From contig NZ_MLCO01000279.1 of the NCBI RefSeq assembly GCF_001982615.1, forward strand, positions 1 to 52,982: 52,982 nucleotides of DNA, written 5' to 3'. Made by a program: the position numbers and the translations under genes. Source of the stretch: Teichococcus deserti (lineage in GTDB: Bacteria > Pseudomonadota > Alphaproteobacteria > Acetobacterales > Acetobacteraceae). A model generated the notes under the pieces. It was not told where the DNA came from and did no database searches. It was given only the letters and a program-made list of their open reading frames with translations. Positions 15,113 to 49,943 of this stretch are shown here, piece by piece (within the stretch, counting starts at the first letter, position 1; every line of letters starts with the position of its first letter).

Positions 15113-15146
15113 GCGGGCGTCGCCGCAGGCGCGCCCGAGAACCGAC

Positions 15147-15200
15147 AGAAAGAGAAGGGGGTCCGGGGGAATTCATTGCCCCGGGCTCTTTCTTTTTCCG
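15147..15200 (+). repeat. Solitary copy of a dispersed palindromic element; probable terminator
   Basis: Outer arms AGAAAGAG (15147-15154) and CTCTTTCT (15186-15193) and inner arms CCGGGG and CCCCGG flank a GGGAATTCATTGCC-type core, with five T residues at 15193-15197. The core and its AGAAGGGGGTCCGGGGG lead-in match the ends of two larger elements at 37739-37960 and 48106-48334, but no second palindrome is present here. It lies 34 bases after the CoxM stop and can fold as a terminator. Confidence 0.75.
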
Positions 15201-16597: not shown

Positions 16598-17458
16598 GTG
16601 CTTCCGGATAACGATTCGCAGGGCAGCGCCGGGGCCATCGAGGCCGAGGTCAAGTGGTACAACGGTCGCAAGGGTTTCGGCTTCGTGCTGGGCCCGGATG
16701 GCCAGGATGTGTTCTTCCACGCCTCGGCTCTGACCGAGGCCGGGATCGAACCGCCCGAGACCGGCGACAAGCTGGTCTGCGAGATCGGCACGGACCGTCA
16801 GGGCCGCCGGCTGGTCACCAAGATTTTTGAGCGGAAGCTTGGCCCCGGCGCTCCGGCCGGCGGCGACCGCCCGCGCCGCGACTTCGGCGCCCCCGGCGGC
16901 TTCGGCGATCGTCCGCCGCGCCGCGACTTCGGCGACCGTCCCCCGCGCCGTGACTTCGGCGACCGCGGTGGTTTCGGCGGCGGCTTTGGTGGCGGTGGTG
17001 GCGGCTTCGGCGATCGTCCGCCGCGTCGCGACTTCGGTGCGCCGGGCGGCTTCGGTGGCGGCGGTGGCTTCGGCGATCGTCCGCCGCGCCGTGACTTCGG
17101 TGGCGGCGGCTTCGGCGGCGGCGACCGTGGTGGTTTCGGTGGTGGCGGCTTCGGCGGCGGCGATCGTGGCGGCTTCGGCGGCCCGCGCTCCTTCGGCGAC
17201 CGTCCGCCGCGCCGCGACTTCGGCGGCGGCCGCGACGAGGGTGGCCCGACCGAGTCCGTGAACGGCACCGTCAAGTGGTTCGACCAGGTCCGTGGCTTCG
17301 GCTTCGTGACGCCGGATGACGGCGGCGCGGATGTCTTCCTGCACAGCTCGGTGCTGCAGCGCGCCGGCAAGCAGGATGTGCAGCAGGGCGAGAAGCTGGC
17401 GCTGGAGGTCCGTCAGGGCCAGCGCGGCCGCCAGGCCGTGATCCTGAAGGGCGAGTAA
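16598..17458 (+). CDS. Double cold-shock-domain protein with RG/FG-rich linker
   Basis: A 286-residue protein with an unusual architecture. Cold-shock domain 1 (about residues 12-75) has RNP1 KGFGFV and RNP2 VFFHAS. Domain 2 (about 222-286) has RGFGFV and VFLHSS. Between them, about 140 residues are almost only G, R, F, D and P, with six copies of a (G)DRPPRRDFG-type unit and blocks of GGFGGG. Cold-shock domains bind single-stranded RNA or DNA, and RG/FG-rich segments often drive multivalent RNA binding. No ATG is available, so GTG 16598 is proposed from the domain position; the ribosome site is weak and the start is the least certain part. Confidence 0.85.
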   Translation: MLPDNDSQGSAGAIEAEVKWYNGRKGFGFVLGPDGQDVFFHASALTEAGIEPPETGDKLVCEIGTDRQGRRLVTKIFERKLGPGAPAGGDRPRRDFGAPGGFGDRPPRRDFGDRPPRRDFGDRGGFGGGFGGGGGGFGDRPPRRDFGAPGGFGGGGGFGDRPPRRDFGGGGFGGGDRGGFGGGGFGGGDRGGFGGPRSFGDRPPRRDFGGGRDEGGPTESVNGTVKWFDQVRGFGFVTPDDGGADVFLHSSVLQRAGKQDVQQGEKLALEVRQGQRGRQAVILKGE

Positions 17459-19439: not shown

Positions 19440-19464
19440 ACGAATAGAAGGAGATGATGGGGGC

Positions 19465-19492
19465 CTGGGGGAAGAATACCTTCTTCCCCCAG
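19465..19492. terminator. Bidirectional hairpin terminator between convergent genes
   Basis: A perfect 12-bp inverted repeat, CTGGGGGAAGAA and TTCTTCCCCCAG, with a four-base loop lies between the TctC stop (19439) and the SDR stop (19508). The position between convergent genes indicates termination in both directions. T runs are short. Its GGGGGAA...TTCCCCC composition recalls the repeat family described at 37739 and 48106, but the core differs. Confidence 0.75.
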
Positions 19493-19507
19493 CCTTGCTT
19501 GTCCTGC

Positions 19508-36706: not shown

Positions 36707-37726
36707 ATGCCTGAACCCCGCAAAAGCCGCATCCTCTGCGATGTGGATTTCGACCGCGATGGCGCCCAGCACGGCTTCCTGCGGCTGTTCCATTCCAGCC
36801 ACGCCTCGGCCTATGGCTTCCTGCCGATCCCGATCGTCGTCATCCGCAACGGCGAGGGCCCGACCGCGCTCTTCGTCTCCGGCAACCACGGCGACGAATA
36901 CGAAGGCCAGGTGGCACTGGCCAACCTGGTCAAGCGCCTGACGCCGGAGGCCATCAAGGGCCGCGTCATCATCCTGCCGACGGCCAACTTCCCCGCCGCC
37001 ATGGCCGGCAACCGCGTCTCGCCGATCGACAACCTCAACCTGAACCGCATTTTCCCCGGCGATCCTGATGGCTCGGTCACCCAGCAGATCGCCTATTTCA
37101 TCGCGACCGAGCTGATCCCGCGCGCCGACCTGATCTGCGACCTGCATTCCGGCGGCTCCTCGCTGCTCTACGTGCCCTGCGTGCTGACCAGCCAGGTGCC
37201 CGACCGGGCGCTCTACGCGAAGCACATGGCGGCGCTGCGGGCCTTCGGCGCGCCGCTGGCCTATGTGCAGGGCCGCGCCCAGGGGCAGGGCGGCAACCAG
37301 ACGCTCGGCGGCTATGCCGAGACGCTCGGCATCCCGACGCTGGGCAGCGAGCTCGGCGGCGGCGGCTGCGTCACCCCGGCCGGGCTGCGCATCGCCGAGC
37401 GCGGCGTGAACAACCTGCTGGTCCATCTCGGCATCCTGCCCGAGAGCGAGCGCCTAGAGGGCGAGGCCACCGAGGTCTTCGGCCTCGCCGGCCAGGACCA
37501 CTTCGTCTACACGCCCGAGGCCGGCGTCTTCGAGCCGCTGGTCGAGCTTGGCGACCGCGTGAAGGCCGGACAGCCGGCAGCGCGGATCCATTTCCCGGAG
37601 ACGCCCTGGGCGCCCTTCGTCGAATGCACCTTCGCCAATGACGGCTTCGTCCTGTGCAAGCGCCAGCCGGGGCGGACGGTGCGGGGGGATTGCCTGTTCG
37701 TTTTGGGCGGCGCGTTCCAGGAATAG
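36707..37726 (+). CDS. Succinylglutamate desuccinylase/aspartoacylase family (M14) deacylase
   Basis: A 339-residue zinc hydrolase. Ligands are visible in GNHGDEYEG (His and Glu) and DLHSGG (His). The catalytic Glu is probably in the LGSELGGGG segment. The C-terminal beta domain (HFVYTPEAGVFEP) is as in AstE, aspartoacylase and the N-acetyl-diaminobutyrate deacetylase DoeB. These enzymes remove an acyl group from an N-acyl amino acid. As last gene of the amidase/importer operon it probably removes an acyl or amide group from the imported molecule. A palindromic terminator (37739-37760) follows 12 bases later. Confidence 0.85.
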   Translation: MPEPRKSRILCDVDFDRDGAQHGFLRLFHSSHASAYGFLPIPIVVIRNGEGPTALFVSGNHGDEYEGQVALANLVKRLTPEAIKGRVIILPTANFPAAMAGNRVSPIDNLNLNRIFPGDPDGSVTQQIAYFIATELIPRADLICDLHSGGSSLLYVPCVLTSQVPDRALYAKHMAALRAFGAPLAYVQGRAQGQGGNQTLGGYAETLGIPTLGSELGGGGCVTPAGLRIAERGVNNLLVHLGILPESERLEGEATEVFGLAGQDHFVYTPEAGVFEPLVELGDRVKAGQPAARIHFPETPWAPFVECTFANDGFVLCKRQPGRTVRGDCLFVLGGAFQE

Positions 37727-37738
37727 GGCAGGGGTAGG

Positions 37739-37960
37739 CCAGGGGAATGAATTCCCCTGGATTTTTCTGTTCATCGGCCGTCACGAGACCAGCGCCATAC
37801 CGCAGGCCACACCAGGGCAGCGCGGCGGGACGCCATCAGACAAGAACGGCGCCACCCCAAAGGTCGTGCTGCGGATTGGCCGTTTCACGTCCTGTCTCCA
37901 CGTGGACACGGCAGTCACCGCAGAAAGAAGAAGGGGGTTCGGGGGAATTCATTCCCCCGA
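37739..37960 (+). repeat. Dispersed non-coding element, copy 1, palindrome-bounded
   Basis: It starts with CCAGGGGAAT-GA-ATTCCCCTGG (37739-37760), followed by ATTTTT, and ends with TCGGGGGAAT-TC-ATTCCCCCGA (37939-37960). Inside are GGCGGGACGC (37823-37832), AAGGTCGTGCTG and the block CACGTGGACACGGCAGTC (37899-37916). The same order, inverted, recurs at 48106-48334. It codes for no convincing protein. The left palindrome plus T run can terminate the M14 hydrolase transcript. It is either a MITE-like mobile repeat or a structured transcript element. Confidence 0.8.
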
Positions 37961-37983
37961 GCTTATTCTGTCTTCTCTTTTAT

Positions 37984-38001
37984 CTGTCACACCCCCGTCA
38001 T
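37984..38001 (+). promoter_or_regulatory. Pho box upstream of the plcP-like gene
   Basis: Reads CTGTCAC-ACCC-CCGTCAT: two seven-base direct repeats with an 11-base period, close to the PhoB consensus CTGTCAT-N4-CTGTCAT. It lies 98 bases before the ATG of the PlcP-like gene and just beyond the repeat element. This suggests phosphate-starvation induction of that gene and the following glycosyltransferase. Confidence 0.65.
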
Positions 38002-38099
38002 GGCGACGTCGCGAAGCTCCGATAAGGCCTCCCCTCGGATGCAACGCTCAGGCCACCGGTCGCGGACTCGGATCCTGGGCACAGCCGAGGGAAGCCGGA

Positions 38100-38921
38100 A
38101 TGCCGCCGAGCCCCGCCACGCGCCGTTATCGGACGCTGTTCATTTCCGACACCCACCTGGGCCAGCGCGGCTGCCGGGTCGACCTGCTGCTCGAGTTCCT
38201 CAACGAGGTGGAGTGCGAGCATCTCTACCTGGTGGGCGACATCATCGATGGCTGGCGCCTGAAGCGCTCCTGGTACTGGGATGCCGGGCATGACCAGGTG
38301 ATCCGCAAGGTCCTTTCCATGGCCAAGCGGGGCACCAAGGTCACCTATATCCCGGGCAACCACGACGAGGTCTTCCGCGACTGGGCCGGGCCGGAGTTCC
38401 AGGTGGCCGGCATCGCCCTGATGAAGGAGGCGGTCCACACCGCCGCCGACGGCCGCCGCTTCCTGGTCATCCATGGCGACGAGTTCGACAGCGTGGTCCG
38501 CTATGCCACCGTCATCGCGCATCTGGGCGACTGGGCCTATGACGCGGCGCTGGCGGTGAACCGCTGGTTCAACGCGGTGCGCCGGCGCCTGGGCTATCCC
38601 TACTGGTCGCTCAGCCAGTGGCTGAAGCGCCAGGTGAAGGAGGCGGTGAAGGCCATCGACCGCTTCGAGGTGGCGCTGGCCGAGGAAGCCCGTCGCCGCG
38701 GCCTGGACGGCGTCATCTGCGGCCATATCCACCATGCCGAGATGCGCCAGGTGAACGGCGTGACCTATATGAACGACGGCGACTGGGTGGAGAGCTGCTC
38801 GGCGCTGGTCGAGCATGCCGATGGCCGCTTCGAACTGATCGACTGGGCCGCCGAGCACCGCCGCCGCCACAACGCCACCCCGCGCGCCCTGCCGGCGCCG
38901 GTCGCCGTCGCCGCCGAATAA
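38100..38921 (+). CDS. plcP: PlcP-like phospholipase C (calcineurin-type metallophosphoesterase)
   Basis: A 273-residue metallophosphoesterase with all five metal motifs: SDTHLG (Asp17, His19), LVGDIIDGW, PGNHDE, VIHGDEFD and GHIHHAE, plus NDGDWVESC. Databases often label this type UDP-2,3-diacylglucosamine hydrolase (LpxH-like). The Sinorhizobium PlcP protein of the same family instead removes phosphocholine or phosphoethanolamine headgroups from membrane lipids when phosphate is scarce. The Pho box upstream, an Agt-like gene one base after its stop, and the nearby pst genes favour PlcP. The start at 38100 is chosen by domain position. Confidence 0.75.
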   Translation: MPPSPATRRYRTLFISDTHLGQRGCRVDLLLEFLNEVECEHLYLVGDIIDGWRLKRSWYWDAGHDQVIRKVLSMAKRGTKVTYIPGNHDEVFRDWAGPEFQVAGIALMKEAVHTAADGRRFLVIHGDEFDSVVRYATVIAHLGDWAYDAALAVNRWFNAVRRRLGYPYWSLSQWLKRQVKEAVKAIDRFEVALAEEARRRGLDGVICGHIHHAEMRQVNGVTYMNDGDWVESCSALVEHADGRFELIDWAAEHRRRHNATPRALPAPVAVAAE

Positions 38922-38922
38922 G

Positions 38923-39957
38923 ATGCGGCTTCTGCTGGTCACGGATGCCTGGACGCCGCAGGTCAACGGCGTCGTCCGCACCCTGAGCATGGTGGCCGAG
39001 ACGCTGAAGCGCGCCGGCGACAGCGTCACGGTGATCAGCCCCGACCGCTTCGGCAGCCTGGCGGTGCCGGGCGAGCCGGGGCTGCGGCTGGCGCTGTTCC
39101 CGCGCCGCCGCCTGGCGGCGATGGTGGAGGAGGCCAGGCCCGATGCGGTGCATATCGCCACCGAAGGGCCGCTGGGATGGTCGATGCGGGGGCTGTGCCG
39201 CCAGCGCGGCTGGCGCTTCACCACCGCCTTCCACACCCGCTTCCCCGATTATCTGGCGGCGCGCTTCCGGGTGCCGCTGGCCTGGTCCTGGCCGGTGCTG
39301 CGGCGCTTCCACGCGGCGGCCTCGGGCACTTTCGTCGCGACCGAAAGCCTGCATCGCGAACTGGACGCCCAGGGCTTCGGCCGGCTGCGCCACTGGTCGC
39401 GCGGCGTCGACACCGCGCTGTTCCAACCGGGGGCGCGCGACGCGTTCCCTGGCCTGCCGCGACCGATCTTTCTGCACGTCGGCCGCGTGGCAGTCGAGAA
39501 AAATATCGAGGCCTTCCTGTCGCTCGACCTGCCGGGGTCGAAGGTGGTGGTGGGCGACGGGCCGGCGCGGGCAGGGCTGCAGCAGCGCTTTCCCCAGGCG
39601 CATTTCGCCGGCTTCCGCCATGGCGAGGCGCTGGCCGCCGCCTATGCCTCGGCCGATGTGATGGTGTTTCCCTCGCGCACCGACACCTTCGGCCTGGTGC
39701 TGCTGGAGGCGCTGGCCTGCGGCACCCCGGTCGCCGCCTTCCGGCAGCCCGGACCGCTGACCGTGCTGGGCGATGCGCCCGTCGGTGCCGTCGACGACGA
39801 CCTGCAGCGCGCCTGCCTGGCCGCGCTGACCGCCGACCGCGCCGCCTGCCGGGCGCGGGCCGAGGGCTTCAGCTGGCAGGCCTGCGCCGCGCAGTTCCGC
39901 GCCCAGCTGGTCTCGCTGCGCGGCGAGCTGCCGGCCGGGCTCGCCGCGGCCGGCTAG
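38923..39957 (+). CDS. GT4 glycosyltransferase, Agt-like (probable glycolipid synthase)
   Basis: A 344-residue GT-B enzyme. The N-terminal domain begins LLLVTDAWTPQVNGVVRT, a pattern of MgtA/SqdX-like GT4 enzymes; the sugar-nucleotide site is in HVGRVAVEKNIEAFL and FPSRTDTFGLVLLEALACG. Related Agt enzymes glycosylate diacylglycerol to make phosphate-free glycolipids. Its ATG follows the PlcP stop after one base, so PlcP would release diacylglycerol and this protein would use it. The sugar donor is unknown. It converges with the lysozyme-like gene. Confidence 0.78.
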   Translation: MRLLLVTDAWTPQVNGVVRTLSMVAETLKRAGDSVTVISPDRFGSLAVPGEPGLRLALFPRRRLAAMVEEARPDAVHIATEGPLGWSMRGLCRQRGWRFTTAFHTRFPDYLAARFRVPLAWSWPVLRRFHAAASGTFVATESLHRELDAQGFGRLRHWSRGVDTALFQPGARDAFPGLPRPIFLHVGRVAVEKNIEAFLSLDLPGSKVVVGDGPARAGLQQRFPQAHFAGFRHGEALAAAYASADVMVFPSRTDTFGLVLLEALACGTPVAAFRQPGPLTVLGDAPVGAVDDDLQRACLAALTADRAACRARAEGFSWQACAAQFRAQLVSLRGELPAGLAAAG

Positions 39958-39960
39958 GCC

Positions 39961-40539
39961 TCAGCCGGGCAGGGGCGGCCAGTCCTCCGGCGACTGGATG
40001 GCGCCCCAGGCCTTCTGCCGTGCCAGGGCCGCCTCCATGCCCAGGCTGAAGGCGGCTTCGGCCCAGCGGCGGCGGCGCAGTCCGGTCACCGGCTTGCCGG
40101 CGCTGTTGCGGTAGATCTTGAACAGGTCGGCGGCGGCCTTCCAGTCGCGGCCGTTCACCAGCTTCAGCAGGCTGGGCGCCGCGACGGTCAGCGCGCCCAG
40201 GTTGTTGGCCAGCAGGATCAGCGCCGCCGCCTGGCGCGGGGTCAGCGGCGCGGTGACCGCCCGGGTGACCAGCAGGGCCGCCTTGTCCAGGTCGCGCTGC
40301 GCCAGCAGCTCGGCCATCGCCCGGTCGATCGAGGGGCCACCAAGCCGCACCGGCGCGCCGTCCAGATAGCTGCGGCTGCCGATGCCGATGGTCGGGAAGC
40401 CGAAGCCGTCATTGTAGGGGGTGAGGATGCAGCCCTCGAAGGCCTCGGACAGGGTCACGGCCTCGGCCGGCACGCCGCCTTGCCAGAGCGCTTCCGGCTC
40501 GGCCGCCGCCATCGGTGCCATTTGCAGAATGCCGCCCAT
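39961..40539 (-). CDS. GH24 phage-type lysozyme
   Basis: A 192-residue T4-lysozyme-family protein. The E-x-G...D...T arrangement is visible in LSEAFEGCILTPYNDGFGFP followed by TIGIG, and the family VTAPLTPRQAAALI and FKIYRNSAGKPVTGLRRRR segments follow. The enzyme cuts peptidoglycan between MurNAc and GlcNAc. There is no clear signal peptide and no phage gene nearby. The ATG at 40539 is set by GGGGAGG 8 bases upstream, which lies inside a perfect hairpin (40541-40568). It may be a domesticated prophage or gene-transfer-agent gene. Confidence 0.82.
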   Translation of the reverse strand: MGGILQMAPMAAAEPEALWQGGVPAEAVTLSEAFEGCILTPYNDGFGFPTIGIGSRSYLDGAPVRLGGPSIDRAMAELLAQRDLDKAALLVTRAVTAPLTPRQAAALILLANNLGALTVAAPSLLKLVNGRDWKAAADLFKIYRNSAGKPVTGLRRRRWAEAAFSLGMEAALARQKAWGAIQSPEDWPPLPG

Positions 40540-40540
40540 C

Positions 40541-40568
40541 GCTGCCTCCCCGGGGTTGGGGAGGCAGC
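40541..40568 (-). promoter_or_regulatory. Hairpin that masks the ribosome-binding site of the GH24 gene
   Basis: On the minus strand an 11-bp perfect stem (40558-40568 with 40541-40551) and a six-base loop directly precede the ATG by one base. The 3' arm holds the Shine-Dalgarno GGGGAGG and the 5' arm its complement CCTCCCC. In mRNA this should hide the ribosome site, so translation would need melting or a ligand. It lacks a T run, so it is not a terminator. Confidence 0.6.
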
Positions 40569-40599
40569 ACAGCATGGGCGTTATCGTTACGTCAACGTA

Positions 40600-41196
40600 T
40601 CAGACGGCGTCGGGCGTGTAGCGCCAGACGCTGGCGGGGGGGAAGTTGCGCGGCGTCCAGGCGCGGCGCTCGGCCTTCAGCGCCAGCTTGCGCCAGGGCA
40701 GCGGGGAGGTGATGCAGTAGGTATAGAGCAGGAAGCCCTGGCCCGGCGCCACCGCCTCGACGCTGTCGAGGAATCGCCGCTGCTTCTCCAGCGGCAGCAG
40801 GACCAGCGGGATGCCGCAGATCGCCGTGGAAATCCGGTGATGCGCCTCGGGCGGGATGCAGGCGGCCAGGTCGAAGGCGTCGCCGCAGACCACGCGCACC
40901 CCGGGCAGGGTGTCGCGCAGATGCGCCGCCATCTCGGGGACGATCTCGACCACGATCAGCCGCTCGGCGGGGACGCCGCTCTCGAGCAGGGCGCGGGACA
41001 CCACGCCAGTGCCGGCGCCGAGCTCCAGCACATAGTCCTGGGGCCCGCGCTTCACCTCGCGCGCGATCCGGCGGCAGAGGCTGGGGGAGGACGGCACCAC
41101 CGAGCCCATCTGCAGCGGATTGGCCGACCAGCGCTTCAGGAAGAGCGCGGCATTGGCCGTGTGCTGGCGGGTGATCCGGGGCAAGGCGTCGGGCAT
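40600..41196 (-). CDS. PmtA-like phospholipid N-methyltransferase
   Basis: A 198-residue class I SAM-dependent methyltransferase. The N-terminal FLKRWSANPLQMGSVVPSS is the hallmark of rhizobial/Rhodobacter-type PmtA and related lipid methyltransferases. SAM motif I is VLELGAGTGVVSRAL; acidic VVEIVPEM and CGDAFDL follow. Such enzymes methylate phosphatidylethanolamine to phosphatidylcholine; BtaB (betaine lipid) and ornithine-lipid enzymes are relatives. The ATG at 41196 follows GGAG. Three Pho-box-like units lie 48-76 bases upstream, which would favour a phosphate-linked lipid role. Confidence 0.72.
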   Translation of the reverse strand: MPDALPRITRQHTANAALFLKRWSANPLQMGSVVPSSPSLCRRIAREVKRGPQDYVLELGAGTGVVSRALLESGVPAERLIVVEIVPEMAAHLRDTLPGVRVVCGDAFDLAACIPPEAHHRISTAICGIPLVLLPLEKQRRFLDSVEAVAPGQGFLLYTYCITSPLPWRKLALKAERRAWTPRNFPPASVWRYTPDAV

Positions 41197-41243
41197 GCGG
41201 CGACTCCGCGAAGGGGCAGACGCCTCCTGTTGGACCCGACGCG

Positions 41244-41272
41244 GCGACAGCGGCGTGGCGGTGCCGTGACAG
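41244..41272 (-). promoter_or_regulatory. Pho-box-like triple repeat upstream of the PmtA-like gene
   Basis: On the minus strand three heptamers at an 11-base period: CTGTCAC (41272-41266), CCGCCAC (41261-41255) and CTGTCGC (41250-41244). Units 1 and 3 fit the PhoB repeat well, unit 2 poorly. The position, 47 bases before the ATG, is plausible for PhoB activation. Chance occurrence in GC-rich DNA cannot be excluded. Confidence 0.35.
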
Positions 41273-41289
41273 TCCCGCGAAGCCGCGGT

Positions 41290-41457
41290 TCAGCCTTGGT
41301 GATCATCCTGCGGCGGCGGGCCACGCAGCAGGCCCAGAAGCCGTGGCGGCAGCGGCTCGGCGCTGTCCTGCGCGAAGCTTTGGCGCAGCTTCGCCTCCAG
41401 CCAGGCGGCCGCCGCCTCGGGCTGCGTCGCAGGGTCAGGGCAGGGCGGTTCGGCCAC
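41290..41457 (-). CDS. Small NepR-like anti-sigma factor candidate
   Basis: A 55-residue reading frame in an otherwise empty stretch, opening with GTG (VAEPPCPDPATQ). The C-terminal half reads LEAKLRQSFAQ, then EPLPPRLLGLL, matching the short two-helix NepR pattern (LR..Y/F...EP-V/L-P-x-R-x2-x-LL). NepR proteins hold the general-stress sigma factor EcfG until PhyR frees it. High third-position GC supports coding. No ecfG or phyR gene is adjacent and the ribosome site is weak, so both identity and start are tentative. The rest of 41197-41682 holds no other gene. Confidence 0.35.
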   Translation of the reverse strand: MAEPPCPDPATQPEAAAAWLEAKLRQSFAQDSAEPLPPRLLGLLRGPPPQDDHQG

Positions 41458-41682
41458 CCGGGGGCGGGGCGGCGGCCGGCGGGGAAGAAAGGCGATCGTC
41501 GCTGCCGGTCGGGTCCATGGCGCCGCTCCATCAAGGCGCCGTGAGCTTAGCCTTGGGCGAGGATTTGCTCGACCGGAAAAATCGCGGATTCGCGAGCTGG
41601 CAACCCGGCCGGCGCGCCATCGGTTCTTCCATCACAGGCGCCCGGCCGCGGCGGCAGGGCGCGCAACGGGAGGAAACCCGCC

Positions 41683-41895
41683 ATGGCCAACCCGACCCCG
41701 CAAGGCGCCGGCGACAAGCAGGCCGAGAAGGACCGTCCGGTCGAAGAGCACCGCAAGGCGAAGGGCGAGGACGCCAAGCTGGAGCGCTCGCTGGAGGACA
41801 CCTTCCCGGCCAGCGATCCGCCGTCGCAGTCCAGCCCCGGCACCAACACGGTGGGCTGGGAGGAGCCGCTGAACGACGGTACCAAGAAGTCCTGA
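41683..41895 (+). CDS. Small hydrophilic protein of unknown function
   Basis: A 70-residue, highly charged protein with a clear ribosome site (GGGAGGAAA) and ATG. The central motif LERSLEDTFPASDPPSQ is shared by many small uncharacterised alphaproteobacterial proteins, some encoded with stress genes; the remainder is Lys/Glu-rich and probably disordered. No catalytic residue is recognisable. It is monocistronic and converges on the PRC-barrel gene. Confidence 0.75.
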   Translation: MANPTPQGAGDKQAEKDRPVEEHRKAKGEDAKLERSLEDTFPASDPPSQSSPGTNTVGWEEPLNDGTKKS

Positions 41896-41917
41896 GCATC
41901 GCCGGCGGGACGGTGGC

Positions 41918-42337
41918 CTAGCGGCTTTCGGCGTCGAGGTCGAAGGCCGGCGCCTCGCGCAGCGCCTCGCGGGTCATCCCGGTGACCAGGCGGGGCGCGC
42001 CGCGCGGGCCGGGCAGGAAACGCAGCTCGGCCATCGGCACCCCCACGTATTTCGTGCCCACCCCCAGGAAGCCGCCGACGCCCAGGACCAGCGAGGCGAC
42101 GCGGCCATCCTCCAGCAGCACCAGGTCGACCACGGCGCCGACCTGCTCCTCCTCCGCGTTGAAGACCGGGCTGCCGATCACCCGGCTGGCGCGCCAGGCC
42201 GGCTGCGGCTCCGCCAGGACAAGGGCCGCGGCCGCCGGCGGCGGTGCCGATGGCGATTCGGCCCGGACGGGACGGTTCGGCGGGCCGAGGAATGTGACAA
42301 GAACGGCCAGGGCCGTGGTGCTGGGCAGCCGGGGCAT
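41918..42337 (-). CDS. Secreted PRC-barrel domain protein
   Basis: A 139-residue protein with a signal-like N-terminus (MPRLPSTTALAVLVTFLG) and a Pro/Ala linker. The PRC-barrel domain covers about residues 50-125: SRVIGSPVFNAEEEQVGAVV, LVLLEDGRVASLVLGVGG and YVGVPMAELRF. PRC barrels occur in photosynthetic reaction centre H subunits and in RNA or stress-related proteins; here the function is unknown. ATG 42337 is preceded by GGAGG. It is divergent from pstS. Confidence 0.78.
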   Translation of the reverse strand: MPRLPSTTALAVLVTFLGPPNRPVRAESPSAPPPAAAALVLAEPQPAWRASRVIGSPVFNAEEEQVGAVVDLVLLEDGRVASLVLGVGGFLGVGTKYVGVPMAELRFLPGPRGAPRLVTGMTREALREAPAFDLDAESR

Positions 42338-42485
42338 GGCAGGATCCTCCACGGCCCCGCGCGATAGCGCGGCACCGGCACCGGCGAAAAGCCCAGCCCC
42401 CGCCTGGGGTTTCAGGCAGCGCTCCGCGCGCGCGGCGATGAGGTGGGGGAGACAACCGGATGACTGTCTCTGGAGGTCTAGGCGG

Positions 42486-42514
42486 CCGTCATCGAAGCTT
42501 CATATTTCTGAAAT
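42486..42514 (+). promoter_or_regulatory. Pho box array upstream of pstS
   Basis: Three heptamers at an 11-base period: CCGTCAT (42486-42492), GCTTCAT (42497-42503) and CTGAAAT (42508-42514). Each keeps part of the PhoB repeat CTGTCAT. It starts 129 bases before the pstS GTG in the divergent region. A pst operon is the expected PhoB target, and PhoB itself is the last gene of this operon. Confidence 0.65.
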
Positions 42515-42614
42515 AGAACCGTCGCTCCTCCGTCCTAGAAGGCGCCTCACCGAACCGGCCGGACCGGCTGCCACCAGCGGACACCGGACGGCCCCAAGGA
42601 CGGAGAGATACAAG

Positions 42615-43661
42615 GTGAGCAATCGGATTCTGGCCCTGGCGGCCGGCCTCGTGGCGTCGATCAGCCTCTCGATGGGCGCTGTCGCGCAGCAGGCCACCAT
42701 CACCGGGGCCGGCGCGAGCTTCCCGAACCCGCTGTACCAGAAGTGGGGCGAGGCGGCCCGCTCGGCGATCAACATCCAGCTCAACTACCAGTCCGTCGGC
42801 TCGGGCGCCGGCCAGGCCCAGATCCGCAACCGCACCGTCGACTTCGGCGCCTCCGACGCGCCGATGACCGCCGAGCAGCTGCAGGAGCACAACCTGCTGC
42901 AGTTCCCGGCCACCATGGGCAGCCTGGTCGCCATCGTGAACGTCCCCGGCGTCGAGGACCACAAGATGCGCCTGACCGGCGAGGTCCTGGCCGACATCTA
43001 CCTGGGCAAGATCACCAAGTGGAACGACCCGCGCCTGGTCGAGATGAACCCGGGCCTGAGCCTGCCGAACCTGGCGATCGCGCCGGTCTACCGCGCTGAC
43101 GGCTCGGGCACGACCTTCGTCTGGGTGTCCTACCTCTCCGCCGTCTCCGGCGACTTCAAGACCCGCGTCGGCGTCGGCACCTCGGTGCGCTGGCCGTCGG
43201 GCACGGGCGCCCGCGGCAACGAGGGCGTCGCCGGCACCGTCCGCAACGTCCGCGGCGCCATCGGCTATGTCGAGCATGCCTATGCCATGCAGAACAAGCT
43301 GGTGACCACGCAGCTGCGCAACCGCGCCGGCAACTATGTCGAGCCGACGACCGCCGCCTTCCAGGCCGCCGCCGCCAATGCCGACTGGACCGCGCCGAAC
43401 TTCGCCGCCAGCCTGATCGACACCCAGGGCGCCACCTCCTGGCCGATCGTCTCGCCGACCTTCATCCTGCTGCCGCGCAACCCGACCGACGCCACCCGCG
43501 CGCAGAACGTGATGAAGTTCTTCGACTGGGCCTTCCGCTCGGGCGATGCCACGGCGACCGAGCTCGACTACATCCCGGTGCCGGAAGCGGTCGAGAACGC
43601 CATCCGCGCCGCCTGGGCGACCATCCAGGTCGACGGCAAGCCGGTCTGGCCGGCGAACTGA
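42615..43661 (+). CDS. pstS: Phosphate ABC transporter substrate-binding protein PstS
   Basis: A 348-residue periplasmic phosphate binder. Start GTG 42615 has GGAGAGA 6 bases upstream. The signal peptide ends at SMGAVAQQA (about residue 26). Phosphate-site features are ITGAGASFPNPLYQKW, RTVDFGASDAPM and RADGSGTTFVW. Length is typical. It captures phosphate and passes it to PstCA. It opens pstSCAB-phoU-phoB and a stable hairpin separates it from pstC, a usual arrangement for making more of the binding protein. Confidence 0.95.
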   Translation: MSNRILALAAGLVASISLSMGAVAQQATITGAGASFPNPLYQKWGEAARSAINIQLNYQSVGSGAGQAQIRNRTVDFGASDAPMTAEQLQEHNLLQFPATMGSLVAIVNVPGVEDHKMRLTGEVLADIYLGKITKWNDPRLVEMNPGLSLPNLAIAPVYRADGSGTTFVWVSYLSAVSGDFKTRVGVGTSVRWPSGTGARGNEGVAGTVRNVRGAIGYVEHAYAMQNKLVTTQLRNRAGNYVEPTTAAFQAAAANADWTAPNFAASLIDTQGATSWPIVSPTFILLPRNPTDATRAQNVMKFFDWAFRSGDATATELDYIPVPEAVENAIRAAWATIQVDGKPVWPAN

Positions 43662-43704
43662 GGACCTGGTCCGGACGCCCGCGTCCGGCCGGATGACAGG
43701 ACAG

Positions 43705-43732
43705 GCGGGCGGCATCACGCGGTGCCGCCCGC
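43705..43732 (+). promoter_or_regulatory. Intercistronic hairpin between pstS and pstC
   Basis: A perfect 10-bp stem (GCGGGCGGCA at 43705-43714 with TGCCGCCCGC at 43723-43732) and an 8-base loop lie 43 bases after the pstS stop. No T run follows. It may protect the pstS message from 3' decay or partly attenuate transcription, so that PstS exceeds the membrane components. Confidence 0.6.
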
Positions 43733-43859
43733 TTCCGCGGATCGGCCGGGGCGGTTAAGCCCGGCCTCCTCAGGACCGACCGCCGCGGCCGCCGCGCCGC
43801 CGGCCCAGGCCCGTCCCGCCGCCGGGGGCTACCCGGAACCCGCGACCCGGAGCGCGATC

Positions 43860-44855
43860 TTGCCGCCGTCCGCCACCCTTGCCCCTGACGCCATCGCCGC
43901 CAGCGGCTCGCCGCCCGGCCTGAGGCGCGGCAGCGCCTCCGGCGCCATGGGCGACGCCATCTTCGCCGCCGCCTGCCGCATCGCCGGCCTCCTGGTGCTG
44001 GCGCTGCTCGGCGCCATCATCATCGGCCTGTTCATCGGCGGCCTGCCGGCCTTCCGGGCCTTCGGCTTCGGCTTCGTCTTCTCGACGGAGTGGGATCCGG
44101 TGCAGGAGGTCTTCGGCGCCGGCGTCTCGATCTACGGCACCGTCATCACCGCCGTGCTGGCGCTGGTGCTCGCCGTGCCGCTGGCCTTCGGCGTCGCCTT
44201 CTACCTGACCGAGCTGGCGCCCGCCTGGCTGCGCCGCCCGGTCGGCACCGCGGTCGAGCTGCTGGCCGCCGTCCCCTCGATCATCTACGGCATGTGGGGC
44301 TTCTTCCTGATCGTGCCGTTCATGGCGCAGACGGTGCAGCCCTTCGTCATCGACACGCTGGGCGAGCTTCCGCTGATCGGCGACCTCTTCGCGGGCCCGC
44401 CCTTCGGCACCGGCATCTTCACCGCCGCCCTGATCCTGGCGATCATGGTGCTGCCCTTCATCGCGGCGACCATGCGCGACGTCTTCGAGACGGTGCCCGC
44501 CGTCTACAAGGAGAGCGCCTACGGCCTGGGCTGCACCCAGTGGGAAGTGGTCCGCAGCGTGGTGCTGCCCTATACCCGCATCTCGGTGGTCGGCGGCATC
44601 ATGCTGGGCCTCGGCCGCGCGCTGGGCGAGACCATGGCGGTCACCTTCGTCATCGGCAACGCCAACCGCATCTCGACCAGCCTGTTCGGGCCGGGCAACA
44701 CCATTGCCTCGGTGATCGCCCTCGAATTCGGCGAGAGCGAGCTCGGCAGCCTCAAGCTCTCCGCGCTGCTGGCGCTGGGCTTCCTGCTCTTCGTCATCTC
44801 CTTCATCGTGCTGGCGGCCTCGCGCTTCCTGCTGCGCCAGCGTCGGAAGGCCTGA
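43860..44855 (+). CDS. pstC: Phosphate ABC transporter permease PstC
   Basis: A 331-residue permease with about six helices. After a Pro/Ala-rich tail, the family core begins [20 protein letters not shown]; later markers are [27 protein letters not shown] and the coupling loop [20 protein letters not shown]. The start is uncertain: TTG 43860 has GGAG at a 7-base spacing and gives a normal-sized tail. GTG 43722 would add 46 residues; ATG 43944 would remove the tail. It pairs with PstA. Confidence 0.9.
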
Positions 44856-44859
44856 TCCC

Positions 44860-45765
44860 ATGAGCGCCACGACCCACGCTGCCCTCCCCAAGGCCAGCCT
44901 GCCGGGCGGCCCCGCCAAGAACCAGGCCGTCGCCGCCGCCCTCGGCCGCCGCCGCCGCGCCACCGCGCTGACCGTCAAGCTCGCCTGCTACGCGGCGACC
45001 GGCATCGGCCTGGCCCTGCTGCTGTCGATCCTGGGCACGCTGTTCTGGAACGGCTTCACCGCGCTGTCGCCGCGGGTCTTCACCGAGGTCACCAAGCCGC
45101 CCGGTTCCGACGGCGGCCTGCTGAACCCGATCATCGGCAGCCTGATCCAGGCCGGCATCGGCACCCTGATCGGCACCCCGATCGGCCTGCTGGTCGGCAC
45201 CTACCTGGCCGAATACGCCAAGGCCTCGCCGCTGGCCAATGCCGTGCGCTTTGTCTCCGACATCCTGCTCTCGGCGCCCTCGATCCTGATCGGCCTCTTC
45301 GTCTACCAGATCCTGGTGGTGCCCTTCGGCGGCTTCTCCGGCTGGGCCGGGTCGGTCGCGCTGGCCATCATCGTCATCCCCATCGTGGTCCGCACGACGG
45401 AAGACATGCTGCGCCTGCTGCCCGACACGCTGCGCGAGGCGGTGATCGGCCTGGGCGCGCCGAAGTGGAAGATGATCACCCTGGTCTGCTGGCGCGCCGC
45501 CGCCTCGGGCATCGTCACCGGCGTGCTGCTGGCGGTCGCCCGCGTCGCCGGCGAGACCGCGCCGCTGCTCTTCACCTCTCTCGGCAACCTGAACTGGTCG
45601 CTCAGCCTCTCCGGGCCGATGTCCAGCCTGCCGATCACCATCTACTCCTATGCCGGCTCGCCGTATCAGGACTGGATCGCGCTGGCCTGGGCGGGCGCGC
45701 TGATCATCACGCTCGGCGTCCTCGGGCTCAACATCGCAGCGCGCACGCTGCTGCGCCGCAAGTGA
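44860..45765 (+). CDS. pstA: Phosphate ABC transporter permease PstA
   Basis: A 301-residue permease, ATG 4 bases after the pstC stop. It has six predicted helices, the PstA motif [31 protein letters not shown] and a coupling segment [13 protein letters not shown], ending [11 protein letters not shown]. It forms the inner-membrane phosphate channel with PstC. Confidence 0.95.
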
Positions 45766-45773
45766 GGCAGATC

Positions 45774-46601
45774 ATGAGCGCTTCCATGACCCAGACCGCC
45801 ACCGACGCCATGCCCGGCCTGCAGGCCCGCAGCGCCGAGACCCTGAACCCGGCCCGCATCTCGGTGCGCAAGCTCGACTTCTACTACGGCGACCACAAGG
45901 CGCTGAAGTCGATCGACTTCGACCTGCCGGACCGCCAGGTCACCGGCATGATCGGCCCCTCGGGCTGCGGCAAGTCGACCCTGCTGCGCGTCCTGAACCG
46001 GATGTACAGCCTCTATCCGGGCCAGCGCGCCACCGGCGAGGTGCTGCTCGACGGCAAGAACATCCTGGATGACGACGTCGACATCAACGCGCTGCGCTCG
46101 CGCGTCGGCATGGTGTTCCAGAAGCCGACGCCCTTCCCGATGACCATCTACGAGAACATCGCCTTCGGCATCCGCCTGCACGAGAAGCTGTCCAAGGCGC
46201 AGATGGACGAGCGGATCGAATGGGCGCTGACCCGCGCCGCCATCTGGGGCGAGGTCAAGGACCGGCTGAACAGCTCGGCCATGGGCCTCTCCGGCGGCCA
46301 GCAGCAGCGCCTCTGCATCGCCCGCACCATCGCGGTGCGGCCCGAGGTGATCCTGCTGGACGAGCCGACCTCGGCGCTCGACCCGATCTCCACCCTCAAG
46401 ATCGAGGAGCTGATCGACGAGCTGAAGCGCGACTTCACCATTGCCATCGTCACGCACAACATGCAGCAGGCGGCGCGCTGCGCCGACCAGGTGGCCTTCT
46501 TCTATCTCGGCGAGCTGATCGAGGTGGCGCCGGCGGAAGAGATGTTCACCGCGCCGAAGCAGAAGAAGACCCAGGAATACATCACCGGCCGGTTCGGCTG
46601 A
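45774..46601 (+). CDS. pstB: Phosphate ABC transporter ATPase PstB
   Basis: A 275-residue ATPase with Walker [10 protein letters not shown], the PstB-typical [19 protein letters not shown], signature [12 protein letters not shown] and Walker [16 protein letters not shown], then THNMQQAAR. It powers PstCA and, with PhoU, reports phosphate status. The ATG is 8 bases after the pstA stop. Confidence 0.96.
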
Positions 46602-46612
46602 TCGGGGCTCCC

Positions 46613-47338
46613 ATGGAAGACACTTTGCAGAGCGAGCACATCGTGAAGTCGTACGAAGAACAGCTGAAGCGCCTGCGTGACATGGTCGCCCGCATGGGCG
46701 GCCTGGCCGAGCGCCAGGTGGCCGATGCCGCCGCCGCCCTGATCCGCCGCGACACCGAGCTCGCCAGCGCCGTCGTCGGCCGCGACGGCGAGATCGACGC
46801 GCTCGAGACCGAGATCGAGAACTTCTGCGTCCGCCTGCTGGCGCTGCGCCAGCCGATGGCCGCCGACCTGCGGCTGATCGTGGCCGCGATGAAGGTCTCG
46901 ACCGACATCGAGCGCATCGGCGACTACGCCCGCAACGCGGCGAAGCGCGCCATCGTCGTCTCGCAGCAGCCGCAGCTGGGCAGCCTGAACGGCTTCCAGT
47001 GGATGGCCAAGCTGGTGCAGGAGAACCTGAAGGACGCGATCGACGCGCTGGTCAAGGAAGACGCCAACGCCGCCGAGCGCGTCTGGGGCGCCGACGCGCC
47101 GGTCGACGACATCTACAACGGCATCTTCCGCGAGATGCTGACCCACATGATGGAAGACCCGCGCAACATCACCGCGGCGACCCACCTGCTGTTCATCGCC
47201 AAGAACTTCGAGCGGATCGGCGACCACGCGACCAACATCGCCGAGACCGTGCACTACGCCGTGCTCGGCCACATGCTGCCCGAGGACCGGCCGAAGTCGG
47301 ACAGCTCCGCCTACACCGTCGTCCGCCCGCCGGTCTGA
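46613..47338 (+). CDS. phoU: Phosphate signalling protein PhoU
   Basis: A 241-residue all-helical protein with two PhoU repeats. Metal-binding motifs E/DxxxD are visible as STDIERIGDYARN in the first repeat and NFERIGDHATNIAE in the second. PhoU holds PhoR and PstB in the off state when phosphate is ample. The gene is 11 bases after pstB and 31 before phoB. Confidence 0.95.
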   Translation: MEDTLQSEHIVKSYEEQLKRLRDMVARMGGLAERQVADAAAALIRRDTELASAVVGRDGEIDALETEIENFCVRLLALRQPMAADLRLIVAAMKVSTDIERIGDYARNAAKRAIVVSQQPQLGSLNGFQWMAKLVQENLKDAIDALVKEDANAAERVWGADAPVDDIYNGIFREMLTHMMEDPRNITAATHLLFIAKNFERIGDHATNIAETVHYAVLGHMLPEDRPKSDSSAYTVVRPPV

Positions 47339-47369
47339 CCGAACGACCGCCTGAGGAGAAGTGCCACCG

Positions 47370-48086
47370 ATGGCCGAGCTGCATTCCGGTATGTCGCGTC
47401 CGACGATCCTGGTGGTCGAGGACGAGGCGCCGCTGCTGACCCTGCTGCGCTACAACCTGGAAAAGCAGGGCTTCCGGGTCGACGAGGCCGCCGACGGCCA
47501 GGAAGCCCTGATGCGGGTCGCCGAGGCTCCGCCCGACCTGGTGCTGCTGGACTGGATGCTGCCGGCCCTCTCCGGGCTGGAAGTCTGCCGCCAGCTGCGC
47601 CGCCGCCCCGACACGCGTGACCTGCCGATCATCATGGTCACCGCCCGCACCGAGGACCAGGACGCCGTGCGCGCCCTGGACACCGGCGCGGACGACTACA
47701 TCGCCAAGCCTTTCGTCATGGATGCGCTGATGGCGCGCATCCGGGCGCTGCTGCGCCGCTCCGGCGGGGTCGCGACCAAGGGCGTGCTGGCCTGGCAGGA
47801 CGTGTCGATGGACCAGGACGCGCACCGCGTGACTCGCGCCGGCCGCGCGCTGCATCTGGGCCCGACCGAGTACCGGCTGCTGGAATTCTTCATGCAGCAC
47901 CCGGGCCGCGTCTTCTCGCGGGAGCAGCTGCTGGACGCCGTCTGGGGCCGCGACATCCATGTCGAGCCGCGCACCGTCGACGTCCATATCCGCCGTCTGC
48001 GCAAGTCGGTGAACGCCGATGGGGAGGTGGATATCATCCGCACCGTCCGTTCCGCCGGCTATGCGCTGGATCTCGAGCACGCCTGA
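47370..48086 (+). CDS. phoB: Phosphate response regulator PhoB
   Basis: A 238-residue OmpR/PhoB-type regulator. The receiver (about 11-126) has Glu17-Asp18, phosphoacceptor Asp61 in LLDWMLP, VTART and the Lys in AKPF. The DNA-binding wing (about 140-236) has GPTEYRLLEFFMQHPGRVFS and RTVDVHIRRLRK, which are characteristic of PhoB. ATG 47370 is set by GAGGAG. Its kinase PhoR is not in the window. It likely acts on the Pho boxes found here. Confidence 0.93.
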   Translation: MAELHSGMSRPTILVVEDEAPLLTLLRYNLEKQGFRVDEAADGQEALMRVAEAPPDLVLLDWMLPALSGLEVCRQLRRRPDTRDLPIIMVTARTEDQDAVRALDTGADDYIAKPFVMDALMARIRALLRRSGGVATKGVLAWQDVSMDQDAHRVTRAGRALHLGPTEYRLLEFFMQHPGRVFSREQLLDAVWGRDIHVEPRTVDVHIRRLRKSVNADGEVDIIRTVRSAGYALDLEHA

Positions 48087-48105
48087 AGGGAAAAAAAGAG
48101 GCAGG

Positions 48106-48334
48106 CCAGGGGAATGAATTCCCCTGGACCCCTTCTTTTTTCTGTCCGACTGCCGTGTCCACGTGAAGACGTGGGGCACAACGGACCATCAACAGCGCGA
48201 CCTTCGAGGTCGCGCTGTTTTTTTATGCCTGCGTCCCGCCATGATGCCCGGGCGACGGTGCAGGCAAGGCGCAGGTCCCCGAACGGCCGGTGATCAGAAA
48301 AAAGATGGGGGCTCGGGGGAATTCATTCCCCCGA
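48106..48334 (-). repeat. Dispersed non-coding element, copy 2 (inverted relative to copy 1)
   Basis: It is bounded by CCAGGGGAAT-GA-ATTCCCCTGG (48106-48127) and TCGGGGGAAT-TC-ATTCCCCCGA (48313-48334). Read on the minus strand it gives the same internal order as copy 1: TTTTTCTG, a GGCCGT block, GGCGGGACGC, AAGGTCG-GCTG, and the identical CACGTGGACACGGCAGTC (48165-48148). It fills the gap between convergent phoB and the Na/Pi gene. It contains a perfect hairpin at 48191-48219 that is poorly kept in copy 1. Confidence 0.8.
48191..48224 (+). terminator. Strong intrinsic terminator downstream of phoB
   Basis: A 13-bp perfect stem (48191-48203 with 48207-48219), a three-base loop TCG and T residues to 48224. 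It lies 105 bases after the phoB stop, within the dispersed element. It should end the pst-phoU-phoB message. Confidence 0.88.
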
Positions 48335-48356
48335 CCTTCCCCCCTGTCTTCTCTGC

Positions 48357-49943
48357 TCAGACGGTCGCTTCTCCCAACAACAACGTCTGCCGCCGGATCA
48401 GCCACACCGCGCGTTCGAAGAGCGTGGTGACCCGGAACAGCAGGCTCTGATCTTCCGGCGTCAGCGCTTCGGTCGTCGACACCCGGCGGCGCAATTGGTC
48501 CATCATCTCCGAGCGGTCGGCCGAAAGCTCGCGCAGCATCGCCAGGTCCTCGCTGTCGCCGCGGCTGCCGACGTCCTCGAGCTGCAGCAGCAGCAGGTGC
48601 AGCGCTTCCGACAGCTGCAGCACGCGGGTGGCGACCGGCGCCTGGGACGGGCCCGCGGCGGCGATGGCGAAGTCGCCGATGGTCTCGCGCAGCGCCGCCA
48701 GCAGCTCGTTGCGGTTCTCCAGCAGCACGGCGCGGTCCAGCGTGCCGCGGTCGGGGTCGCGCGCCAGCAGCTCGGCCAGGAAGGTCTTGGTGGCCTGCTC
48801 GACGCTGGCGGCGGCAGCCAGCTGGGTGGCGACCGGCGGCGTCGCAGGCGTGCCGTCCAGCACCGGGGCCAGCAGGCCGGGCAGGCGGGCGGCGAGGCCG
48901 GCCTGCTCGCGCTCGACCAGGTCGAGGGCGCTGGGCGGATGGTCGAGCGCCTGATCGTACAGAAAGCGCGGACGGCCCAGCGCCTCGGCCGGCGTCGCCG
49001 GCGACAGCCGCTCCAGCAGGGCGCGCATCGGGCGGCCGAGTGGTGCGAGGAACAGCGCCGTCACCACCTGAAAGATCAGGAACAGCCAGCCGATGCGCTC
49101 GGGCAGGCGCTCGGCCAGGTGCTCGGTCAGCCAGAGGACGAGCGGGATGCCGCGCTGCTCCAGCACGAAGAGGCCGAGGAACAGGACCGTGCCGATCACC
49201 TTGAAGAGGGTCTGGAACCAGGCGAGCTGGCGGGCCGAGCCGGACAGGTTGCCCGACAGCAGCAGCACCGACAGGCCGGAGCCGAGCGAGGCGCCATAGA
49301 CCACCATCACCGTCTGCTCGAAGCCGAGCAGGCCGAGGCTGGCGAGCGTGATCGCCAGGATCGAGACGGTGGAGGAGGATTGCGCGACGATGGTCACCAC
49401 CACCCCGACCAGGAAGGGCGGGGTGAGGGCCTGGCCGGAGAAGGCCAGCAGCTCGCGCACCATGGGCAGGTCGCGCAGCGGCGCGGCGCCGGCCTTGATG
49501 GTGGCCAGGCCCAGGAACAGCAGGCCAAGCCCCGCCAGCGCCCCCAGCAGCGGCCGCAGGCGCCCGCCGTGGTCGATGCCGAAATAGCTGGCGAAGCCGA
49601 CCAGGCCGAACAGCCAGAGCACCGCCAGCCGCAGGTCGATGGTGGCCAGCAGCACCAGCCCCGCGGTGCCGGCATTGGCCCAGGCGAGCGCCGGCAGCGC
49701 GCGCGCCAGCGGCAGCAGCCCGGCGGTGTAGAGGCTGGTGGCGATGAAGGTGACGGCGTTGGAGCTCTGGGTCAGCGCGCCCAGCAGCAGGCCGGTGCCG
49801 GCGGCCGAAACCGGCCCGCGGGTCGCCAGCCGCATGGCGCCGCGCAGCCGTGGGCCGGCCATGGCCTGCAACCCGCTGCCGACCGCCTTGATGCCCAGGA
49901 AGAACAGGCCGAGGCCCCCGAAGAGGCTGGCGAAGAGTTCCAT
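48357..49943 (-). CDS. Na/Pi cotransporter family protein with PhoU-like tail
   Basis: A 528-residue membrane protein with two inverted transport repeats, each with the family QSS signature: LLGALTQSSNAVTF and VTIVAQSSSTVSIL. About eight helices span residues 1-310. The C-terminal 200 residues are helical and PhoU-like (LLENRNELLAALRETIGDF). Such proteins import phosphate with sodium, or regulate Pi export. It lies downstream of the small sensor-like gene, convergent with phoB. Confidence 0.88.
   Translation of the reverse strand: MELFASLFGGLGLFFLGIKAVGSGLQAMAGPRLRGAMRLATRGPVSAAGTGLLLGALTQSSNAVTFIATSLYTAGLLPLARALPALAWANAGTAGLVLLATIDLRLAVLWLFGLVGFASYFGIDHGGRLRPLLGALAGLGLLFLGLATIKAGAAPLRDLPMVRELLAFSGQALTPPFLVGVVVTIVAQSSSTVSILAITLASLGLLGFEQTVMVVYGASLGSGLSVLLLSGNLSGSARQLAWFQTLFKVIGTVLFLGLFVLEQRGIPLVLWLTEHLAERLPERIGWLFLIFQVVTALFLAPLGRPMRALLERLSPATPAEALGRPRFLYDQALDHPPSALDLVEREQAGLAARLPGLLAPVLDGTPATPPVATQLAAAASVEQATKTFLAELLARDPDRGTLDRAVLLENRNELLAALRETIGDFAIAAAGPSQAPVATRVLQLSEALHLLLLQLEDVGSRGDSEDLAMLRELSADRSEMMDQLRRRVSTTEALTPEDQSLLFRVTTLFERAVWLIRRQTLLLGEATV

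Follow-up and report, generated by a model that had tools for sequence, protein, structure and literature searches.

Two copies of a short interspersed repeat lie in inverted orientation in the 52,982-nt stretch of Teichococcus deserti contig NZ_MLCO01000279.1 analysed here (hereafter the window). The repeat is non-coding and has a build like that of bacterial interspersed mosaic elements (BIMEs) and miniature inverted-repeat transposable elements (MITEs), with two inverted 43-nt end units around an interior. Since terminator-like hairpins in these end units are found about 15 bases past stop codons, for the most part in gaps flanked by convergent genes, the end hairpins probably mark where messages end. 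Judging from sequence comparison, we consider it likely that this is a BIME/MITE-like repeat acting as a paired 3'-end element (terminator or mRNA stop), old and mostly inherited in place. An initial annotation of the window had named three candidates, a MITE-like mobile repeat, a genus-specific repetitive extragenic palindromic (REP)-type element and a structured transcript end; the last of them appears the best supported, by the docking at stop codons and the covariation of the stems.

The counts of copies and of core pairs identify the feature as a repeat family. When copy 1 was searched in its own draft genome (G000, 6.25 Mb in 597 contigs), 40 of 274 first-look candidates were scored, and 37 of these 40 matches run from within 8 nt of the query start to the last 9 nt, the other three being partial (73-100% identity). 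Scores of copies are therefore present besides the two on which the initial annotation was based. The exact palindrome GGGGAATNNATTCCCC occurs 230 times in the same genome, against 0 for the reversed control. Inward pairs of exact cores at the spacing of the element number 61 in G000, 64 in the sister genome G015, two in G007, one in G008 and none in the other 13 genomes of the genus, and outward-facing pairs at this spacing are absent from all 17. Full-length BLAST matches to copy 1 were found only in its own genome and in one sister genome; a profile search detected diverged full-length relatives as well, for example in P. cervicalis (L056, 86 bits).

Structure and placement of the end units

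We aligned 57 copies from G000 and G015 (alignment A1), leaving out three of 60 with enlarged hairpins (L006, L026 and L108). Each element begins with an end hairpin, a C-rich spacer with [AT]TC and the T-run TTTTTTCTG; after roughly 140 nt of interior, this end recurs in inverted form. The end unit of 43 nt is made of an 11-bp bulged hairpin followed by CCC[AT]TC and a T-run that points inward. The stem reads GG-YY-GGGG-AA with a UGAA loop and one bulged purine, which is A in 101 of 107 ends and G in the other six, and the mean energy of the hairpin is -17.5 kcal/mol (111 ends).

RNAalifold recovered both end hairpins from A1 with many two-sided changes. The stem pairs contain 107 two-sided changed cells, against 33.0 in shuffles, although the copies are related and the covariation events are for this reason fewer than the cells. 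The covariation score of the stems is 0.263, compared with 0.121 when shuffled and at most 0.089 when slid. Furthermore, at the three variable stem positions the bases are paired in 106, 104 and 105 of 107 single ends, where 79.7, 63.1 and 87.2 would be expected if they were independent. The compensatory changes that the initial annotation had proposed to look for in aligned copies are present in the end hairpins, while the interior helices that were tested gave 4 two-sided cells against 3.1 in shuffles, i.e. no covariation signal. A long stem between the two ends of one element was also considered and rejected, its A/T position being complementary in 26 of 48 elements against about 22.8 expected from the margins (nine of the 57 elements were dropped for not fitting the expression). 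The structure thus seems to be kept locally in each end.

Some peculiarities of the ends were observed in addition. The two ends of one element differ in type (GGGGG or AGGGG stem) in 43 of 48 A1 elements, against about 24.5 expected from the margins, which may reflect descent from a few founder arrangements. An extra perfect hairpin (e.g. around CATATATG, GTATAC or GCAGTGC) stands between the two C-runs of the end in L006, L026, L116, L226:1633, L229:1610, L232, L233, L236 and L242; its sequence differs between genera and the spot is identical. Eight A1 copies (L103, L029, L106, L042, L019, L028, L039 and L112:3053) have paired changes from ACTGCCG to ATTGCCA, of which G015:C16:53391 carries only the first; no partner helix was found for this motif.

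Placement was analysed with a simple purpose-written gene caller, which called 90% of the G006 sequence coding. For 57 of the 60 unique full copies the genes on either side were both called; these genes are convergent at 40 copies, tandem at 16 and divergent at one, against 61, 248 and 64 adjacent gene pairs in the background (Fisher p 4e-16; some orthologous sites enter once for each species, similarity to copy 1 decided which copies were taken, and the background is drawn from more than one species). The edges that face a stop codon in G000 and G015 are within 36 nt of it in 94 of 96 cases, with a median of 15 nt and the other two at -44 and 70 nt (negative distances are overlaps of gene calls), and the edges on the start side (n=18) have a median distance of 73 nt. 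Between tandem genes, the interior is oriented with the genes in seven cases and against them in nine. As in an intrinsic terminator, the GC-rich hairpin lies shortly past the stop and in the direction of the gene. A scan covered 402 genes, taken from 400 kb of G006 and from the window: 27 have a correctly directed element hairpin within 110 nt, 25 another terminator-like hairpin and 350 neither, so that genes are followed by an element hairpin as often as by terminator-like hairpins of any other kind; at least three of the 15 listed among the latter resemble decayed element ends.

Copies in the window

The two inverted copies described by the initial annotation are indeed there, with an ungapped inverted match of 155 nt and 72% identity. 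The bounding palindromes are common to both, with GGGGAATTCATTCCCC-type cores at 37742-37757, 37942-37957, 48109-48124 and 48316-48331; at up to three mismatches these cores give 10 matches in the window (five places, each matched on both strands), a number attained in none of 100 shuffles, whose mean is 0.30. The identical 18-base block CACGTGGACACGGCAGTC is exact at 37899-37916 (+) and 48148-48165 (-) and is found nowhere else in the window within three mismatches. Two of 100 shuffles also reach two matches at this tolerance, so it is the exactness of the block that carries the weight. The shared segments TTTTTCTG, GGCGGGACGC and AAGGTCG...GCTG are real too and correspond to the consensus of the whole family. 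The features are as follows.

37736-37963, + strand: element copy 1, between two + strand genes (nhmmer span 37736-37959)
37736-37769, + strand: left end of copy 1, stem CCAGGGG/CCCCTGG with UGAA loop, then A and TTTTTCTG, no C-rich spacer (34.5 bits)
37770-37920, + strand: interior of copy 1, with the 18-nt block at 37899-37916; tested interior helices without covariation
37921-37963, - strand: right end of copy 1, hairpin unit with CCCCCTTCTTCTTTCTG tract and inward T-run (66.7 bits)
48103-48337, - strand: element copy 2, flanked by convergent genes
48103-48144, + strand: end of copy 2 past the response-regulator stop, hairpin then CCCCTTCTTTTTTCTG (60.8 bits)
48191-48219, + strand: internal hairpin and T-run of copy 2, terminator-like by pattern (1 found against 0.5 in shuffles), no support from covariation over copies
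48295-48337, - strand: end of copy 2 past the Na/Pi cotransporter stop, hairpin then CCCCCATCTTTTTTCTG (68.3 bits)
15145-15187, - strand: lone end unit of the family between tandem genes, no partner found (48.1 bits)
19448-19495, - strand: degenerate lone end unit between convergent genes, no partner (35.1 bits)
36707-37726, + strand: gene upstream of copy 1, AstE/AspA catalytic domain
38100-38921, + strand: gene downstream of copy 1, metallophosphoesterase
47370-48086, + strand: gene left of copy 2, response regulator
48357-49943, - strand: gene right of copy 2, Na+/Pi cotransporter

In the left end of copy 1 the T-run comes almost directly after the stem because the C-rich spacer is absent there. 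The response-regulator gene is presumably phoB, a name that we give from the neighbouring genes. Apart from the elements, the window has at 16857-17269, inside a gene called at 16598-17458, many repeats, apparently in frame, of a Gly/Arg/Asp-rich segment (repeat families D4, D7 and D11).

Distribution and inheritance

A covariance model of the end unit (R1) gave 55 hits in a 400-kb sample of genome G006, 53 of them at E values up to about 0.001, which form 23 pairs and seven singles. Wherever two neighbouring units lie within 300 bp of each other (23 cases), they are in +- order and face inward. The pairs span 87-204 bp, their interiors are unlike one another and the loops are often AGAA or GGAA. 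Placement is looser than in G000 and G015: 12 of 30 elements or singles lie between convergent genes, against 48 of 352 in the background (p 7e-4), and 32 of 39 stop-side distances are 30 nt or less, with medians of 8 nt on the stop side and 63 nt on the start side. At 14 loci from five genomes of other genera, our own scan showed a pair 114-140 bp apart core to core in eight cases and a single hairpin in the other six; the pairs have the same ends, the T-rich tract and often a central hairpin, at -9 to 16 nt from the stop.

At an E value of 0.001 or less, R1 matched 47 of 299 Acetobacteraceae genomes and 18 of 102 sampled genera. In 12 of the 47 genomes R1 has a single match, and four of the genera are represented by one hit each, at E values of at least 3e-4 and possibly due to chance. 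The family search loses weak matches, and a per-genome count of 21 stands for at least 21. The description of the repeat as genus-specific was thus too narrow for the end unit, and within the genus itself one genome, G011, is without the family. A pattern scan of named genomes found at least 80 loci, those listed all belonging to Roseomonas, Pseudoroseomonas or Acetobacteraceae bacterium H6797. Among plasmids only 2 of 72,556 records matched, with single ends, and there was no match among phages. An Rfam search of copy 1 (37700-38000) gave three matches of 12-18 bits, all far below the gathering scores. No such family is described in the titles and abstract openings seen, for part of the open-licence literature, on repeats of Roseomonas or Acetobacteraceae or on repeats with terminators or convergent genes.

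Three other loci deserve mention. At L225:1660-2353 the two units of an element-like pair are separated by 678 bp, and between them lies a long stretch of foreign appearance that by eye seems to be coding on the reverse strand. After the response-regulator gene of genome G012 (L121) there is a different, AT-rich inverted repeat sharing GGCGTCCCGCC/GGCGGGACG, possibly another repeat family. In L063 (genome G001), tandem 15-nt repeats of GGGGCCAGAAAGGTC run into the hairpin at 1526.

The site of copy 2 is also occupied in the sister genome G015. In P. cervicalis (G003) the convergent gene pair is the same, the preceding stretch is 91% identical and, by eye, an ordinary hairpin with T-run takes the place of the element; this genome is too diverged to place the junction. 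No element was found within 420 nt of the end of the response-regulator gene in any of the 14 species other than G015 in which this gene end was located, and in all of these except G003 the sequence after the gene is a different one. The target duplications and empty sites that the initial annotation had suggested looking for did not appear: no duplication was seen by eye in the flanks, and there is no clean empty site.

All of 11 orthologous sites compared between G000 and G015 are occupied in both, the element plus 60 nt on each side being 84-90% identical and the flanks 89-96%, although this occupancy is biased because the sites were found through elements in both genomes. For four sites of the own genome that were chosen regardless of G015, the sister genome shows an element at the first, an end cut by a contig edge at the second, a lone end at the third and a truncated element at the fourth, i.e. 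no sign of recent movement. We infer that many copies predate the split of the two species and were inherited at their sites; they look old and stable. The full G000 element L230:9300-9520 is found at a rearrangement breakpoint, with its flanks on different G015 contigs (loci L252 and L253) and a truncated element at one of them.

A patch is common to two G015 copies from different sites, and these copies group at 100/99 in a tree of the interiors, in which one orthologous pair (L012, L099) clusters at 99/82. The shared patch suggests occasional gene conversion between the interiors of different sites, for which there is one clear case, given that the tree is poorly resolved (38 of 54 inner branches open) and was used for these two clusters only.

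Possible role at transcript ends, alternatives and known repeats

The following sequence of events would account for the placement. RNA polymerase leaving either gene would transcribe the end hairpin just past the stop codon, the hairpin would fold within about 15-40 nt past the stop, followed by the T-run, and the two together would end the message or fix its 3' end. As this would happen on either side, one element could act on the two genes of a convergent pair; between tandem genes it could act on the upstream gene and on antisense transcription. The interior need not be functional. In favour of such a role speak the place and direction of the hairpins, the conserved T-run, the covariation of the stems and the occupation of a position where a relative has an ordinary terminator.

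Several observations weigh against this. In a textbook terminator the T-run adjoins the stem, but here it starts 5-7 nt past it in 107 of 114 ends (the remaining ends did not fit the expression) and directly after it in only 2 of 62 copies; the left end of copy 1 and L104, both without the C-rich spacer, do resemble textbook terminators. The terminator pattern scan left the outer ends of copy 2 uncalled, and it called the right hairpin of copy 1 in the outward direction too. A longer fold with the purine-rich stretch after the stop is possible, with a median gain of 1.4 kcal/mol over shuffled flanks, but it is better than shuffled in 73% of the stop-side and only 53% of the start-side ends. 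In G006, 15 of the 30 elements or singles have tandem and three have divergent neighbours, and at 7 of 39 stop-side edges the stop is more than 40 nt away. The absence from G011 means that the family is not essential, and a convergent bias has also been found for supposed genomic parasites (PMC3049150).

Much the same hairpins could instead stabilise the 3' ends of messages, as a barrier to 3'-5' exonucleases of the kind proposed for REPs, with termination further on, e.g. by Rho. This overlaps with the reading above, in which the ends may either terminate the message or fix its 3' end, and would fit such strong hairpins directly past stops and the C-rich spacer that sets the T-run off from the stem. 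We regard it as rather unlikely, since a pure barrier would not need the inward T-rich tract that is kept across genera, and copy 2 occupies a site at which P. cervicalis has what by eye is a hairpin/T-run terminator.

A non-functional MITE-like parasite, whose copies after stops survive because selection removed the insertions elsewhere, would have such a size, inverted ends, no coding sequence and many copies, and the argument has been made for pneumococcal repeats (PMC3049150). The lack of the element at the response-regulator gene in 14 species and of the whole family in G011 points the same way. The tight docking on both sides in the own and sister genomes, the stems that stay paired through many changes when the interior helices do not, and the four less biased sites make such a parasite unlikely, more so than a stabiliser.

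A site for gyrase or a nucleoid protein between converging transcription units, as for the BIMEs of Escherichia coli, would agree with the convergent bias and with the conserved interior block of the G000/G015 subfamily; it is improbable given the dissimilar interiors in G006 and the stem covariation, which favours a single-strand or RNA role. Hardly credible is a multi-copy small-RNA gene in the interior with its own terminator, for which the hairpin and T-run at 48191-48219 pass the terminator pattern, since the interior helices look good in single copies and covary no better than shuffles, copy 1 reached no Rfam gathering score and no sigma-70-like site was found (the scan expects almost none in such GC-rich DNA).

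As an extension of termination at paired ends, and as a tentative idea that we would not expect to hold in full, former parasitic palindromes might have been domesticated as a modular double terminator at a fixed distance from two facing stops, taking over a large share of the hairpin-type gene ends of these genomes, with unlike ends and a copyable interior that insulate converging transcription. If the ends do terminate transcripts, a bacterial genus would owe much of its 3'-end machinery to a repeat of the mobile type, and the natural copies with stem changes, missing spacers or added hairpins would be a test set for how repeats become terminators. The element could also serve as a marker of gene 3' ends in the annotation of Roseomonas and relatives.

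Among known kinds of repeats, the family agrees with MITEs in being 70-300 bp long and non-coding with terminal inverted repeats, with BIMEs in its two inverted palindromic units and with REPs in having a short palindromic unit in many intergenic copies. Mobility of the MITE kind is plausible for the past, but neither a target duplication nor a clean empty site nor a partner enzyme was found; no transposase with matching ends turned up, although no systematic search was made. "REP-type" was right in kind and wrong as to family. The end consensus AAGGTCGGGGGAATGAATTCCCCCGAACCCCCTTCTTTTTTCT (26 ends from 16 genomes, read by eye) has no GTAG/CGTC tag, and the REP-associated tyrosine transposase (RAYT, Y1_Tnp) gene is absent from the own genome, one of the 17 genus genomes having a single marginal match of 23 bits. 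We rejected a REPIN/RAYT identity because the own genome has no RAYT and, with both the tag and RAYT tests failed, filed the repeat as a new family of interspersed 3'-end repeats.

BIMEs and REPs of enterobacteria and Pseudomonas are likewise small intergenic palindromes, often in inverted pairs downstream of coding regions and mainly between convergent and tandem genes; a GTAG or CGTC tag is present in most of them, and CGTC repeats are reported to be missing in Acetobacteraceae (PMC3733652). Unlike them, the T. deserti family has, besides the missing tag and RAYT, a directional T-run in each unit, inward pairs only and a nearly fixed length in the G000/G015 subfamily. Stable stem-loops in general favour the 3' side of genes (PMC1590033), and a review considers a terminator function of MITEs conceivable (PMC10969869). 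SPRITE is an interspersed stem with U-rich tract near the 3' ends of coding sequences; it is enriched between convergent genes, and its co-option as a terminator has been suggested (PMC3049150). SPRITE differs in having one AT-rich 18-bp duplex, a long U tract and 30 copies, against two GC-rich inward hairpins with an interior and 61-64 exact-core pairs in an alphaproteobacterial family. YPAL/RU-2 and ERIC of Yersinia and enterobacteria are similar as intergenic repeats of 127-168 bp, and YPAL, whose targets coincide with dyad symmetry or adjoin it, possibly affects upstream RNA (PMC2229807). YPAL has target duplications and filled/empty sites, of which we found none in the T. deserti family. 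The EFAR repeats of enterococci are palindromic, MITE-like and work as bidirectional terminators; they belong to a different phylum. By analogy the T. deserti family would work like these known repeats, yet it fails the REP tag and RAYT tests, and it is a new family within a known kind of interspersed repeats.

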